From Arcticibacter tournemirensis (GTDB taxonomy: Bacteria > Bacteroidota > Bacteroidia > Sphingobacteriales > Sphingobacteriaceae): 64,000 bases of DNA. Shown here piece after piece: positions 15,654-21,935 of this stretch. Both the position numbers and the translations under genes were made by a program. The stretch covers positions 4,278,001 to 4,342,000 of the forward strand of contig NZ_VFPL01000001.1 of the NCBI RefSeq assembly GCF_006716645.1. The letters run 5' to 3'. The number at the start of each line of letters is the position of its first letter. Position 1 is the first letter of the stretch. The notes under the pieces were generated by a model, which saw only the letters and a program-made list of their open reading frames with translations, was not told the DNA's origin and searched no databases.

Positions 15654-16514
15654 TCAGACCAACTGAATCAATACCTCCTGCTCCAAACCTTTTTTATAGC
15701 GATGCAATAACTGACTGAGTTCAAGTATGCCTCGCTCATCGACTTCTGACGCATGAAAACTTTTTTTTTGCCGGTCATATAATTTTCGATTGCCAAACCT
15801 GGCGATCAGTGATTCTATGTCGTTTGGAATAAAGAATTTTGCCCGTTCGCCTAATGAACGTTTATATTCATTCAGATAAATATTAATCCCGGCAAAATCA
15901 AAATCACCAAAGTGCAGATAGGAGTTAGGAATGCGGCGCAGCCAGTTCAAAAGGTCTTTGTTCTGATTTTGTGGATAACGGCTTACAAATAATGGAGAAA
16001 TCTCCTCGAACAGGTGTCGTTGTTCAGCGATCCTGCTGAAATTTTCCGCGTTTTCAACATTGACAATCAATACATCCGGATCCGGAACAAAAGTTTCATA
16101 ATTATGAATGAATTGAAAGGTGCCAGGAGGCGGCTGAATAATGATTTCTTTCCCACCCAGCATGGCAACGACGGGTTGGTAACTATTCACTAAAAACCCT
16201 TTAAATGTTCTAACCACCTTTCTCTTTGAATCCGATGCATGCCGCGCCAGATCAGCCCTCAAAAAGTCATCTTGACGCAGTGTAGCTAAATATGCTTCCA
16301 AATCAGATATAGAAAAGCGATTGTTAATGTATGCACGCAAAGACACAGGGTCAGGAACGTACAACGTGCTTTTTGTCCGCCCCTTTCTTTGGTCTATGAT
16401 AATCCCTTCTGATATCAGTTCGGCAACCAGAGCAAATTTAAGGCTGCTGGCGGGCAGGCGCTCTCCATGCGCTAACCGAAGTAACTTATCCGCCAATGCA
16501 CTACTCAGTTGCAT
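15654..16514 (-). CDS. JetD/MksG-like Toprim-domain protein of a Wadjet-type system
   Basis: 286 aa. The N-terminal part (residues 1-70) looks like a winged helix; residues about 145-260 are a Toprim domain with the acidic residues expected for metal-dependent DNA cleavage: Glu154 in VENAENF and Asp204/Asp206 in HFGDFDFAGINIY. JetD is the topoisomerase-VI-like nuclease of Wadjet systems that cuts plasmids after the SMC motor has extruded them. The gene is the last of four tightly coupled genes, overlapping the ATPase gene by 14 nt. It is clearly shorter than the roughly 400 aa I expect for JetD, mostly at the N-terminus. Confidence 0.82.
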   Translation of the reverse strand: MQLSSALADKLLRLAHGERLPASSLKFALVAELISEGIIIDQRKGRTKSTLYVPDPVSLRAYINNRFSISDLEAYLATLRQDDFLRADLARHASDSKRKVVRTFKGFLVNSYQPVVAMLGGKEIIIQPPPGTFQFIHNYETFVPDPDVLIVNVENAENFSRIAEQRHLFEEISPLFVSRYPQNQNKDLLNWLRRIPNSYLHFGDFDFAGINIYLNEYKRSLGERAKFFIPNDIESLIARFGNRKLYDRQKKSFHASEVDERGILELSQLLHRYKKGLEQEVLIQLV

Positions 16515-19500
16515 TTCCCATATTATTAGTGATTAGTCTCTTGATAAGAGTGGCATGCTTGCTATCCTTGGTCAGCAGATAAGTGTGTTTATAGTCAACG
16601 GCATTATACGATGTCGGAGAGCTGTTGATAAGCATAATATTGCGATCGTTAGCAAACTTAAGAATGCCTTTAACATTATTTGGGTGCAGCTTGCCGATTT
16701 CATCCATCATACAATGCAGCCTAAAATCCCTGAACCTTTTAGATGCGTTCTCTTTAAAAACATTCAACAGCATGATATTGATCATGGCCTTTACCAGCAC
16801 ATCTGTCCCTTCAGATCCAACATTTGTTAGCTTTTCGACCCAGCCGCTGTCATTTTCATTTTCAACGATCCTGAACTGGAGTTCAAAGGTATCCGAGAGT
16901 GTCACCTCACCTTGTTTTGATCCGGCAATTTCAGCTGCAAAGCTTTTCAGATAACTGACCGCACGTTTGTTGTTATGCACGGTATCATCATTGCTGAACA
17001 AATTGGCACCACCCAGTGAGATCGCGTAATCGTTATTGAACAAACGGATCTCCTGCAATAAGGTAACAATCTTATTTGCACTGGGAGACATCCGAAGTTC
17101 TATACCCCTGATCACACCGGCAAAATTACGTTCCACAAAGTCCCGGTTGATGTCGTTGATCACCTTGTTAATGATGGCTTCTTTAGAGACCAGTTCCGTC
17201 GTCTCTTTACTCACCTGGAAGACCAGGGTCGCAAAAAGTTCGTTGGTGCGCTTTTCGTATTCTTCAATTTTATTTTCCTCCAAAAACTCGCTAAGACTGT
17301 CGGCGAACCTGAGGTATTCTTCATCATCGATCAGACTGGTTTCAAAACCAAAAATATTCCCTGAAGAGAAATTACTCAGGAACCTGTTTATGCTGCCGCG
17401 CAGATCATTCATCCGTAATATAGCTTCATTGATCTTATCCGAGATTGCTGCAATCAGTTTTGTCAGCCGCAGACTGGTACCCGATTCATTACCTGTTTCA
17501 TCGAAATGATCAGCCAGCCGCAGAAACGTATCTGTTTTACTAAAGTCCTCAAACGCTTTCAGATCTTCTCCCATTTCCCTCAATGCCTGATTTTCGGCCT
17601 TAATGACCTCATTTAACTGGTCAACGGTCTCCTGTAGTTTTGCCTTTCCGGCCTCGTAGCGTTGCTGCTCTCCCGACAGTTTGGTTTCCGCCAGCTTTTT
17701 AGCCGCTTTAAAATCATCCACATGGTCAAACAACTCCCGTTTATCTTTATTATACTCCGCTACCTGATCACGGTTGGCCTCAATATATTCGAGCTCCGCT
17801 TCCACCTCCGTTAGTTCCTGGTCTAAAGCAGTGATGCGGGCAACGTCAGCGCCTTCGTTTTCCAGGGCCTTTTTACCCTGTTCATCAATTTGCTTTTTTC
17901 TTAGGACTATACGGTTCCGCTCTTCAGCAATATCAACTGCTGCTTTTTCCAGTTCAGTGTGTAAGGCCTGATCTTCGGCATCGAGCCGCTGATCTCTTTC
18001 CTTCTTTTTATCATCAAGCCGCTTTTTAATGGTTTTTTGAAACACCAAAAGTTGTTCCTCCGCCGATGATCTTTCTTCAATGGCGCTAACAATATGTGCT
18101 TTGATCGTTGTAACCTCTGCTTTTTGTTCACTTTCTGCCTTTCGCAACCACTCATCACGTTCCAGTATCGAAGCCTCACGACTTTCCCTAAGCTTCGTTT
18201 CTTCGTATTCACGGAGCGCGATCGAATCCTTTAGTGCTCTTATCTGCGGCTGATATTTCTTCTTTAGTTTGTCGGCCTCCACCATCTGTTCTTCTGTCAA
18301 TGCAGCCAGAGATACCTGGCAGGCCGCAATGTCGTTATTGAGTTGTTGGATTTCCTGTTCATAATCCGCAATAGACTTAACATCGCTGGTCACACCAGAG
18401 AGGTCGAGTTCAACTCCGTAAATCAACGGATGATCCGGCTGCACCATTTTAGGCGACAGCCCGGAATTGAAAAGTACCGACCGCTGATCAACCACTTTAC
18501 CAACACTCTGCTCCCAGCCTGGTTTATTTTCGTGCAGCCATTCGTAGAACGAATTCCTGCTGTTTGCAATAACCGCTGCGTTCTCTTCGGCCATCCTCCC
18601 GGCGGCGACGATCTGTGCTTCAATTTTTTCCCGTTTAAGCGTGTATTCAACCTCACTTCTTTTGACATCGAGGTCCCAGTTTTTTTGAAGTGATTCGATC
18701 TGCGTTCTACTGGCTGATCTTTCGTTTTTTATAACCAAAAGTTTCTGGTCGGCATTTACAATGGCCTTATTGCTGGCTACCAGTTCATTTTCAAACCAAC
18801 GCTTTAGTTCGGCTTCCTTCTTTTTTAACTCCAGTTGATGCACCAGTTCTCTTTTTTCGCTGAGTGCAGCTTCGGCATCCTTTTTAATATCCGCATGCTC
18901 CCGCTCAATGGCGGCCATTATCTTGTCATATTGTTTTCTTATCTCCTCCTTTTTGAGGTAAGAAGCGGCCCTGACATCATTACCTAAGGTATTCTTTTCA
19001 TTTATAAACTGGTCCAGCTGATTTTGTAACTGGAGAGCTAAAGCTTCATACTTATTGGTGATCTCCTGATAGCGACCGACCAATAAAGCCCGTTCCGCCT
19101 GCTTATTGGTTTTCCGGCTTTCCCATTCTGATCTTCTAGCAACGCGTTCTATCAGGCGATGAATACCGATCTGGTCATAGTTTTCCGTCTTGCGCCTTAT
19201 TTCCGTTAGTTTAGCATCCATCAAGGTGATCTCTTTATTGATCTTATCCCTTTTGTCCCGGAACTTCTGGTCCGCCTCTTCGACTTTTTTTACAGCAACG
19301 GCGTGTTTCTCCCTATGCTGGTCAAGTCGTTTAACATATCCAGGATAAGCTTGTTCCAGGCTGGAATGAACGTGGAAAAGTGAGCGAACGAGGTGTACTT
19401 TCTCCTGTTCCAGAAAGCCCACCGTTTTATGCAAGCCAGCTATCTTATCGGCCAGTATGCGAACTACGACCTCACCAGACCGGGAGCGTTCAGTCCATTT

Positions 19501-20178
19501 TCCGATATCCGATAGCTGTTGTTCAAAATTCTTTAAATGCAGAGCATACTGATCCAGATCGATCTTTATGTCTTCTTCATTCAACGACATGATGATCGTT
19601 TGCTTTATAAACTCAGCTTCCAGTTTAGAGTTTAGAAAAACATTCTGGATGGTACGCGGGAGGTTTTGATATTGCCGGCTTTCAATCATGGCATACTTCC
19701 TGAACTGTGCAGGAAGCCCTTTATTATTTCCATATAAAATATCCCGGTATTCTTCATAGCGTTCAATTTTACGGGTATAAACGGAAGTACCGGAAAATGT
19801 ATTCCTTACCTGGTCCCAAATCATTGCTTTATGATCGGTGCTGATATAATTGGCCCGGTCATAAGCGCCGTCTATAAAGCGAAAAGCGACCCTGCCCTGC
19901 GATTTGTAAGCAAGAACGCAAAAAAGACCGGTTTCCGTAACCACTTCATAAACAATAAATGAATTGCCGTGCGGCAAATAATAATCATCAAAAGACCGCT
20001 TGCCTTTCTCAATGCCCAGCTTCGTTTTATCTGCATTATAAAAAAACAGTATAGCGCGAAGGATGGTACTTTTTCCCACTCCCTGCGTTCCGATGAAGTG
20101 CACATTCCCCGCAATACCTATTTCCGCATAAGCAATATTGGCACTATTGATAAAAATGATTTTATTGAGGTATCTCAT
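16501..20178 (-). CDS. JetC/MksB-like SMC ATPase of a Wadjet-type system
   Basis: 1225 aa. Walker A near the start (GTQGVGKST, residues 30-38), long coiled-coil segments in the middle (about 270-870, very rich in Lys/Glu/Leu/Arg) and a C-terminal ATPase half with a signature-like GSEGTD segment and Walker B FRLHCMMDEIGK. This head-coil-head layout is that of MukB/JetC condensin-like motors, which extrude DNA loops. The second gene product upstream has the size of the KITE subunit and the first that of the kleisin. It overlaps the jetB-like gene by 17 nt and the jetD-like gene by 14 nt, so translation is coupled. A small hinge could lie near residues 530-600 (the WEQSVGKVVDQRSVLFN region). Confidence 0.9.
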   Translation of the reverse strand: MRYLNKIIFINSANIAYAEIGIAGNVHFIGTQGVGKSTILRAILFFYNADKTKLGIEKGKRSFDDYYLPHGNSFIVYEVVTETGLFCVLAYKSQGRVAFRFIDGAYDRANYISTDHKAMIWDQVRNTFSGTSVYTRKIERYEEYRDILYGNNKGLPAQFRKYAMIESRQYQNLPRTIQNVFLNSKLEAEFIKQTIIMSLNEEDIKIDLDQYALHLKNFEQQLSDIGKWTERSRSGEVVVRILADKIAGLHKTVGFLEQEKVHLVRSLFHVHSSLEQAYPGYVKRLDQHREKHAVAVKKVEEADQKFRDKRDKINKEITLMDAKLTEIRRKTENYDQIGIHRLIERVARRSEWESRKTNKQAERALLVGRYQEITNKYEALALQLQNQLDQFINEKNTLGNDVRAASYLKKEEIRKQYDKIMAAIEREHADIKKDAEAALSEKRELVHQLELKKKEAELKRWFENELVASNKAIVNADQKLLVIKNERSASRTQIESLQKNWDLDVKRSEVEYTLKREKIEAQIVAAGRMAEENAAVIANSRNSFYEWLHENKPGWEQSVGKVVDQRSVLFNSGLSPKMVQPDHPLIYGVELDLSGVTSDVKSIADYEQEIQQLNNDIAACQVSLAALTEEQMVEADKLKKKYQPQIRALKDSIALREYEETKLRESREASILERDEWLRKAESEQKAEVTTIKAHIVSAIEERSSAEEQLLVFQKTIKKRLDDKKKERDQRLDAEDQALHTELEKAAVDIAEERNRIVLRKKQIDEQGKKALENEGADVARITALDQELTEVEAELEYIEANRDQVAEYNKDKRELFDHVDDFKAAKKLAETKLSGEQQRYEAGKAKLQETVDQLNEVIKAENQALREMGEDLKAFEDFSKTDTFLRLADHFDETGNESGTSLRLTKLIAAISDKINEAILRMNDLRGSINRFLSNFSSGNIFGFETSLIDDEEYLRFADSLSEFLEENKIEEYEKRTNELFATLVFQVSKETTELVSKEAIINKVINDINRDFVERNFAGVIRGIELRMSPSANKIVTLLQEIRLFNNDYAISLGGANLFSNDDTVHNNKRAVSYLKSFAAEIAGSKQGEVTLSDTFELQFRIVENENDSGWVEKLTNVGSEGTDVLVKAMINIMLLNVFKENASKRFRDFRLHCMMDEIGKLHPNNVKGILKFANDRNIMLINSSPTSYNAVDYKHTYLLTKDSKHATLIKRLITNNMGNATE

Positions 20179-20734
20179 GCTGTATATCTTCGGGAATATT
20201 GATAGTCAGGACTAATTTTTCAAGGTAAGTAAACGAGGATAGCGTCTTATACTCCTGGGAAATATCATTTTCAAGTTCGATGAAATTATCCCTTACCAGA
20301 TGATCTAATACCTTTTCCATGATATCGGTATATTTCTCTTTCCCAGGAGCATATTTCTTTAAGCCTTCCAGTTTGTTTTTCAGGTCCGCGTCAACACTCG
20401 TCCGGGCCAGTATATCAGCTATACGAAAGCGGAACCCGGAACCAAAGCTATTGTCGTAGGTCTTCAGAAAATCCAGAATATCGATCCATTTCATGGCAAT
20501 TTCCAGCTTACGTTCTATTTCAGCACGGTTCTCTGCACGCACAAAATGATAATATTCGTCCCCTTCTTCAAGGATGAGGTTGATTCCTGAAAAGTATTCG
20601 TAATAGGCCTCGAAATCCTGGCTGATTGCATTATAAAGTTTTCGAATGGCATCTTTGGTGCTGTTGGAGCAAATGAACTGGCCTTTGCTGAGAATTTCGA
20701 AAACTTCCGCTGTTTGTTTGGGGATCTCGATCAT
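20162..20734 (-). CDS. JetB/MksE-like KITE subunit
   Basis: 190 aa, acidic and mostly helical (FEILSKGQFICSNSTKDAIRKLYNAI at the start, then DILDFLKTYDNSFGSGFRFRIADILAR). Sequence similarity alone would not identify it; the size, two winged-helix-like regions and position between the kleisin-like gene and the SMC ATPase gene match MukE/MksE/JetB. The ATG lies one base after the stop of the upstream gene and the 3' end overlaps the ATPase gene by 17 nt. In the family this subunit dimerises on the kleisin and contacts the SMC heads and DNA. Confidence 0.82.
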   Translation of the reverse strand: MIEIPKQTAEVFEILSKGQFICSNSTKDAIRKLYNAISQDFEAYYEYFSGINLILEEGDEYYHFVRAENRAEIERKLEIAMKWIDILDFLKTYDNSFGSGFRFRIADILARTSVDADLKNKLEGLKKYAPGKEKYTDIMEKVLDHLVRDNFIELENDISQEYKTLSSFTYLEKLVLTINIPEDIQHEIPQ

Positions 20735-20735
20735 A

Positions 20736-21935
20736 TTATAAAGGGTATATCAGTAAATATTCAGATTCGTGTTTGATTTGGTATTGGTCGGTTAACCGGA
20801 ACTGCGTATCATATTGTGAAATGAGCTGACAATAGATGGTCAGCCTATCCGCAAAAGAGACCGCCATGCCAAAATCGTACGATTCAAGGAAATCAAAAAG
20901 ATTGTTACTGCCTGCCAAGAAGCTGTTCTTTACTTCTTCCAGGTTAACCTGAGAGACCAGCTCAGCGCCCGTTTCCAGATAATCCTGAAGGTTTGTATCG
21001 GCTACAGACTGTCTGATCCGCTGTCCCGACCTTGAACGGGCCTGTACTTTCCTGATCAATTCAAGGCTGGCATCATCAACCTGTAGCTGATCCAGGGACA
21101 GCTTTAAGGCATAAGCGGGTTTGGCTTCAAACAGCAGTGGGTTTTGGGCGCCAAGTACTTGTACAATGTTGGTTTTGGTACGCAGCTCGAATTGATCCTT
21201 CAGGTATTTGAGCTGACGGATCTTCTCTACCAATATGCTCTGACTTCTGAGGCGGTTGAGATATTCGATGATTTGTTTCTGCGCATCGATCAGGTTATGA
21301 CGGCAAATGTTCAACTGACCTTTCAAGTTCAGAATGATCCTTTGCAGCTCTTCATCAGCGGCTATTTTAAAAAAAGTTTGCTCATCGTCCCCCGAAATCA
21401 GGTTATCTGTCAGGCTAATCAGCGTCGATATGTCATTGCGCTTGAGATCCAGATGCTCCAGTTTTGCCTTTTTTACCTGGTAATTAGGCTCGTTTTTAAA
21501 CGTATTGTCAATGTTCCTCTTCAGGTCGACCACGTTGCGGATGGCAATCGTTCCCGTCTTGCGAAGGGCGCTTTTTACTTGTCTGAGATAGGCATATCGC
21601 CGGCTTTCACTATTTTCCTGAAGGTAATATAAGATATTTTGCCGGATGGACTGCAGGTTTTCATTGATGTAAGATACATTGATCTCTTCATTTACCTCCA
21701 GTATCTGCTCGAAGAATTGAAGGAACTGGTCGTCCAGCTCCAAAAAGCTGCCGTTTTCACGCAATACAGCGTATTCAATTAAGATACGCAGCTTATCTTC
21801 ATTATACTCCAGTACTTCCAGCGCATCGTCATATTTGTAAGCGAGCACTTTTCGCTTCTCAAATATTTCGCTGATCAGCTTCTGTTCCCGGCTGAGTATA
21901 TTCAGCAGTTGTTTTATCGAGGAAAATGTTTTCAA
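20736..21935 (-). CDS. JetA/MksF-like kleisin subunit
   Basis: 399 aa, almost entirely helical with long amphipathic stretches and a winged-helix-like start (IKQLLNILSREQKLISEIFEKRK). It is the first gene of the four-gene operon, matching the jetA position; JetA/MksF bridges the SMC heads. The start codon is TTG at 21935 (no in-frame ATG lies between the upstream in-frame stop at 21954 and this codon), followed by AAA ACA. Family assignment comes mainly from the operon; on its own the protein would be called hypothetical. Its length is shorter than the roughly 480 aa I associate with JetA. Confidence 0.8.
   Translation of the reverse strand: MKTFSSIKQLLNILSREQKLISEIFEKRKVLAYKYDDALEVLEYNEDKLRILIEYAVLRENGSFLELDDQFLQFFEQILEVNEEINVSYINENLQSIRQNILYYLQENSESRRYAYLRQVKSALRKTGTIAIRNVVDLKRNIDNTFKNEPNYQVKKAKLEHLDLKRNDISTLISLTDNLISGDDEQTFFKIAADEELQRIILNLKGQLNICRHNLIDAQKQIIEYLNRLRSQSILVEKIRQLKYLKDQFELRTKTNIVQVLGAQNPLLFEAKPAYALKLSLDQLQVDDASLELIRKVQARSRSGQRIRQSVADTNLQDYLETGAELVSQVNLEEVKNSFLAGSNNLFDFLESYDFGMAVSFADRLTIYCQLISQYDTQFRLTDQYQIKHESEYLLIYPL

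Follow-up and report, generated by a model that had tools for sequence, protein, structure and literature searches.

A four-gene operon of Arcticibacter tournemirensis that probably encodes a Wadjet-group SMC-nuclease complex outside the modelled types I-III

What does a tight operon of four genes, here called A, B, C and D, do for Arcticibacter tournemirensis? It occupies positions 15654-21935 on the minus strand of a 64,000-nucleotide stretch of the genome of this Bacteroidota species (contig NZ_VFPL01000001.1, positions 4,278,001 to 4,342,000), hereafter the window, to which coordinates refer unless another locus is named. An earlier interpretation made without database searches (the sequence-only reading) assigned the operon to the Wadjet/Mks type from its architecture, and the profile, fold and motif evidence presented here bears this out. 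In characterised Wadjet systems, a trio built around an SMC (structural maintenance of chromosomes) ATPase extrudes DNA loops and a Toprim subunit cleaves the DNA after full extrusion of a small circle (PMC10586767, PMC10123090). We consider it likely that the operon of the window encodes an SMC-nuclease complex of this kind (JetABCD/MksBEFG), which would cut plasmids.

Transcription runs from A through B and C to D, from position 21935 down to 15654. All four open reading frames stand where the sequence-only reading had placed them; its description of them as overlapping holds for B and C (17 nucleotides) and for C and D (14 nucleotides) but not for A and B, which are separated by 1 nucleotide. 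The TTG start of A is backed by an invariant first methionine and a conserved MxTFSS beginning in 28 homologues, and no Bacteroidota-type promoter is claimed from inspection by eye of the region upstream of A. A profile of D, built from four sphingobacterial genomes and searched against the GTDB species genomes, retrieved 135 relatives, the best 80 of which were taken for comparison; in these loci the D homologues display 45-66% identity. The order A-B-C-D is found in 66 of the 69 loci with enough upstream sequence and C adjoins D in 74 of 77, which indicates joint inheritance of the nuclease with the SMC trio. Conservation of this extent, in identity and in gene order, rules out a chance or artefactual operon.

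The SMC ATPase is the most readily recognized component. Gene C matches Pfam DUF3584 (PF12128) over its whole length (residues 18-1194, E 3.6e-57) and carries the Walker A and Walker B motifs that had been noticed in the sequence, together with an ATP-binding cassette (ABC) signature reading GSEGTD or GSDGTD among 25 homologues, in all of which K36, G1124, D1159 and E1160 are invariant. Judging from its position, a conserved block in the middle of the protein probably represents the hinge joining two coiled-coil halves. The product of B matches Pfam MksE (PF21980) over residues 6-174 (E 2.2e-42), a model that also picks up the JetB proteins of type I loci. The first gene is less conspicuous, as searches of Pfam, NCBIfam and PADLOC gave no noteworthy family for A. 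Its AlphaFold2 model (mean predicted local distance difference test, pLDDT, of 74.9) displays a winged helix at each terminus and a long helical middle. MukF and JetA account for all of its top seven Foldseek matches in the PDB (E 4e-4 to 9e-3), whereas in the VIA-align ranking MukF is interspersed with unrelated helical bundles of similar Z score. The model suggests, less firmly than that of D, a kleisin fold of the MukF/JetA type, which is the weakest of the Wadjet-group features found in the operon.

The fourth gene provides the nuclease. D matches Pfam DUF7281 (E 2.3e-10) and reaches 13 bits against the Pfam JetD_C model, under the cut-off of 22. Its AlphaFold2 model (pLDDT 88.4) consists of a winged-helix part, at about residues 1-90, followed by a Toprim part. 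Residues 105-286 are best aligned by VIA-align with MksG (8b7f, Z 11.9, 156 residues, 3.4 A), followed by topoisomerase VI-A (1d3y, Z 11.8) and JetD (7til, Z 10.6), with Spo11 also in the top group; the next family falls to Z 7.2. The residues singled out by the sequence-only reading as those of the Toprim protein, Glu154, Asp204 and Asp206, are present and invariant in 30 homologues. Together with the C-terminal LEQE/LDQE of D, their motifs correspond to ENxxNFL, GDxDxxGF and RLEQE, which are common to the type I JetD of other Bacteroidota and to the MksG and JetD proteins of solved structures. The glutamate of ENxxNFL is the one replaced in JetD(E248A), a catalytically dead variant (entry 8q72). 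In the structural alignment JetD 7til is matched only from residue 206 and D from residue 101, from which it follows that D is without about 100 N-terminal residues of JetD. The features of the operon are collected in Table 1.

Table 1. Genes and conserved motifs of the operon, with positions in the window
Feature	Position	Strand	Remarks
Gene A, JetA/MksF-like kleisin, 399 amino acids, TTG start	20736..21935	-	First gene conserved in 66/69 loci; winged-helix model; MukF/JetA fold matches
Gene B, JetB/MksE-like KITE subunit, 190 amino acids	20162..20734	-	Pfam MksE PF21980
Gene C, JetC/MksB-like SMC ATPase, 1225 amino acids	16501..20178	-	Pfam DUF3584 PF12128; invariant ATPase motifs
Gene D, JetD/MksG-like Toprim nuclease, 286 amino acids, short winged-helix N-terminus and Toprim	15654..16514	-	Pfam DUF7281; AlphaFold2 model; MksG/TopoVI-A/JetD fold matches
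Walker A of C, HFIGTQGVGKST, residues 30-38	20065..20091	-	G30, T31, G35, K36, T38 invariant in 25 homologues
ABC signature of C, GSEGTD, residues 1121-1126 (seen as VGSEGTD)	16801..16818	-	G1121, S1122, G1124, T1125, D1126 invariant
Walker B of C, CMMDEIGK, residues 1156-1163	16690..16713	-	D1159, E1160, G1162 invariant
Mid-protein block of C, residues about 545-640 (probable hinge)	18259..18546	-	W547, L548, W555, G560, L569, P576 conserved amid variable coiled-coil sequence
Catalytic Glu154 of D, V-E-N motif	16053..16055	-	E154-N155 invariant in 30 homologues; corresponds to ENxxNFL of type I JetD
Metal-binding DxD of D, Asp204 and Asp206	15897..15905	-	Invariant in 30 homologues; aligns with GDxDxxGF of JetD
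C-terminal LEQE/LDQE of D, residues 277-280	15675..15686	-	Q279, E280 invariant in 30 homologues; corresponds to RLEQE of type I JetD and to the MksG C-terminus

Operon organization, KITE subunit, SMC motifs, kleisin fold and Toprim nuclease features are thus all found, and they place the operon in the Wadjet/Mks group in the broad sense, a group that spans a diverse sequence space (PMC7617805). The hidden Markov model and structure searches that had been proposed against the Jet/Mks families identified MksE for B, DUF3584 for C, the MukF/JetA fold for A and the MksG fold for D; they returned no curated match to types I-III. Wadjet type I (Escherichia coli GF4-3, Pseudomonas aeruginosa PA14, Corynebacterium glutamicum) shares with the present operon the order kleisin-KITE-SMC-Toprim, the MksE and DUF3584-type proteins, a MukF/JetA-like kleisin fold and a Toprim domain with E, DxD and C-terminal LEQE motifs. 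It differs in size: type I operons of other Bacteroidota encode a JetA of 482-508 and a JetD of 380-403 amino acids, compared with 399 for A and 286 for D, so that the impression that both proteins are shorter than usual was correct. None of the type I signatures JetD_C, DUF3322, DUF3375 and DUF4194 is matched at the curated Pfam cut-off, and none is reported at E up to 1 except the sub-threshold JetD_C match. The PADLOC type I models match weakly, JetC1 over the first 58 residues of C (6.5e-07) and JetD1 over the Toprim region of D (1.5e-05).

The other described types are no closer. Type II is characterised by DUF2397, DUF2398, an SMC protein of the TIGR02680 type and a DUF2399 nuclease, and none of these appears among the Pfam and NCBIfam matches at E up to 1. 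For type III, the PADLOC models JetA3-JetD3 yielded only chance-level matches, JetD3 over 30 residues (E 0.011) and JetC3 in the coiled coil (E 0.64). Types II and III nevertheless have the same overall layout as the operon described here (PMC10586767). NCBIfam names none of the four proteins at its cut-offs. Judged by the models of Pfam, NCBIfam and PADLOC, the operon is therefore not of type I, II or III, in line with the earlier suggestion that it may be a distinct subtype. A survey of Wadjet-group operons filtered kleisins to 400-1200 amino acids, a range that A just misses (PMC7617805), and our literature search returned no mention of DUF7281 and no further Wadjet type by name.

By analogy with characterised Wadjet systems, A, B and C would assemble into a kleisin-KITE-SMC motor driving the extrusion of DNA loops at the expense of ATP, in one complex with D. 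On a small circular DNA, extrusion would run to completion and D would be switched on; the activated Toprim endonuclease would then cut the DNA. Plasmid restriction is the best reading of the function, the action on plasmids being drawn from the same analogy. Since D is short, the nuclease is probably kept in check and set free in a way that differs in its details. It is conceivable, although we regard it as a tentative proposal, that the operon represents a Wadjet type of its own. Its nuclease would have lost the long N-terminal arm that contributes to keeping JetD closed, and would have a different switch-on mechanism and perhaps a response to other DNA sizes or shapes than in type I.

The relatives of D belong mostly to Bacteroidota, in many classes. 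Single relatives are assigned to Ignavibacteriota, Nitrospirota, Thermodesulfobacteriota and an Altiarchaeales bin; these are metagenome bins that may contain foreign contigs. With the genome of the window counted, D is present in three of the six genomes of the genus and in four of the 37 of the family, and in a sample of 296 genomes of the phylum the single clear match was this same genome, a frequency too low to be informative. The tree of D mixes classes: it requires 26 changes of class label where 6 would be the minimum. The operon has moved between classes and its distribution is patchy. Four plasmids of 65 kb to 1.6 Mb carry a relative, among them a 157-kb Persicobacter plasmid with a complete operon, the products of which are listed there as hypothetical and ATP-binding proteins. 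A phage or viral origin was considered and rejected, as no homologue of D was found in IMG/VR or among GenBank phages. Each of the six genomes searched in the genus also encodes a canonical SMC-hinge protein at another place, which makes the copy in the window an accessory one.

Several observations weigh against assigning the operon to Wadjet. Similarity to the characterised systems is very weak, for type I close to what can still be detected: hhalign compares D to type I JetD with a P value of 4.5e-4 and 33% probability, A and B cannot be aligned with confidence to type I proteins by pairwise profile comparison, PADLOC gives nothing credible for A and B, and the genes flanking the operon in the window are ordinary. 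Sequence-only searches of the PDB with profiles of the four families were of no use. A defence system of the same build might also be directed mainly at phages or other circular replication intermediates instead of plasmids. Defence-type neighbours (AbiEii, Schlafen-type) accompany the operon at some loci, the short D suggests a different control, and plasmids of the sizes given above carry the operon, so that not every plasmid is excluded. We find phage targets unlikely, since the characterised members of the group that carry a nuclease act on plasmids (PMC10586767, PMC10123090). Moreover, large plasmids escape type I Wadjet (PMC10586767), and for this reason plasmid carriage is no strong argument for phage targets.

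The relation to chromosome organizers must also be weighed. MukBEF and MksBEF condensins devoid of a nuclease share with the operon a MukF-like kleisin fold, an MksE subunit and a DUF3584 SMC protein, and nuclease-free MksBEF organizes the chromosome of Pseudomonas aeruginosa (PMC7485682). D shares with topoisomerase VI-A and Spo11 a Toprim fold and a winged-helix domain. The four genes could in principle specify an additional MksBEF-type condensin of the chromosome, in which D would serve the topology or repair of the host's own chromosome, all the more since the fold of the Toprim half of D resembles topoisomerase VI-A as closely as JetD. This appears quite improbable. The condensins differ from the operon, in which the fourth gene encodes a Toprim nuclease (in the operon in 74 of 77 loci); no topoisomerase VI-B partner is present in the operon and D bears the LEQE C-terminus of JetD. 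The patchy presence even inside the genus and the canonical SMC protein of the same genomes disfavour a housekeeping condensin, and transfer between classes combined with decay in some hosts is unlike such a protein. Broken sister copies elsewhere also raise the question of whether the copy of A. tournemirensis is real but now inactive. We judge this highly improbable, as none of its four frames is interrupted and no invariant catalytic residue is missing. Plasmid cleavage by a complex of the Wadjet group remains our preferred reading.

Such a system is missed by defence catalogues built on type I-III profiles, and RefSeq labels its parts as hypothetical or ATP-binding proteins. It may constitute an unnoticed obstacle to plasmid transformation in Bacteroidota, for which the genetic tools available are a limiting factor. 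With its 286 residues, the nuclease would also offer a smaller Wadjet system for asking which parts of JetD serve autoinhibition and activation.

Two further arrangements were encountered among related loci. By profile comparison C and D are nearer to the SMC protein and nuclease of a rearranged C-D-A-B locus (L148:8279-13454) than to type I. This locus encodes, in order, an SMC protein of 887 amino acids with a weak LmuB match, a Toprim nuclease (263 amino acids), a 398-amino acid protein and MksE (182 amino acids), the first two being the nearest relatives of C and D outside the family. Loci L146:4235-10326 and L147:7001-13123 represent another uncatalogued Mks-like lineage of four genes in Bacteroidota, with one case in the family of A. 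tournemirensis. It comprises a gene in the kleisin position (437-456 amino acids), an MksE-like protein (215-224), a MukB-like SMC protein (1056-1080) and a fourth protein (305-317) with EN and DWDxxG motifs; PADLOC matches no protein of L146.

In the window the operon is flanked by a thioredoxin-fold protein on one side and by a two-component system on the other. In two Arcticibacter relatives it lies beside a RhuM-family gene and a major facilitator superfamily (MFS) transporter, the RhuM-family gene being directly downstream of D in both (L006:887-1927, L007:6257-7273), and Mucilaginibacter arboris provides another context; the flanking genes of the window have none in common with these genomes. 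An empty-site comparison within the genus found the two flanking genes to be without orthologue in the sister genomes, so that an insertion boundary could not be drawn. Neighbours in the sampled loci include AbiEii, RhuM, prokaryotic Argonaute (pAgo)-type, Schlafen-type and integrase genes, for which enrichment is not claimed; the defence genes among them speak in favour of the Wadjet reading.

Some copies of the operon are broken by an IS66 insertion, an internal deletion or frame breaks. In Mucilaginibacter arboris (L008:11517-16433, the same locus as L016), the SMC protein lacks the equivalent of residues 245-697 and its frame is broken near residue 1124; the other three genes remain intact, as expected of a decaying copy. 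In Algoriphagus antarcticus (L049:2403-5310), gene B is split by an IS66-type element with TnpB- and TnpC-like open reading frames. Locus L029:4247-9861 keeps A and D and has MOSC-domain, cytochrome-like and peptidyl-prolyl isomerase-like open reading frames in place of B and C; it possibly comes from a mis-assembled bin. At L048:3224-5118, B and C are separated by genes for a small HicB-like and a GNAT-family protein, an arrangement resembling the insertion of a toxin-antitoxin pair into the operon. Finally, the Chitinophagaceae metagenome bin JAFKGR01 contains two distinct copies of the operon (L061, L079).

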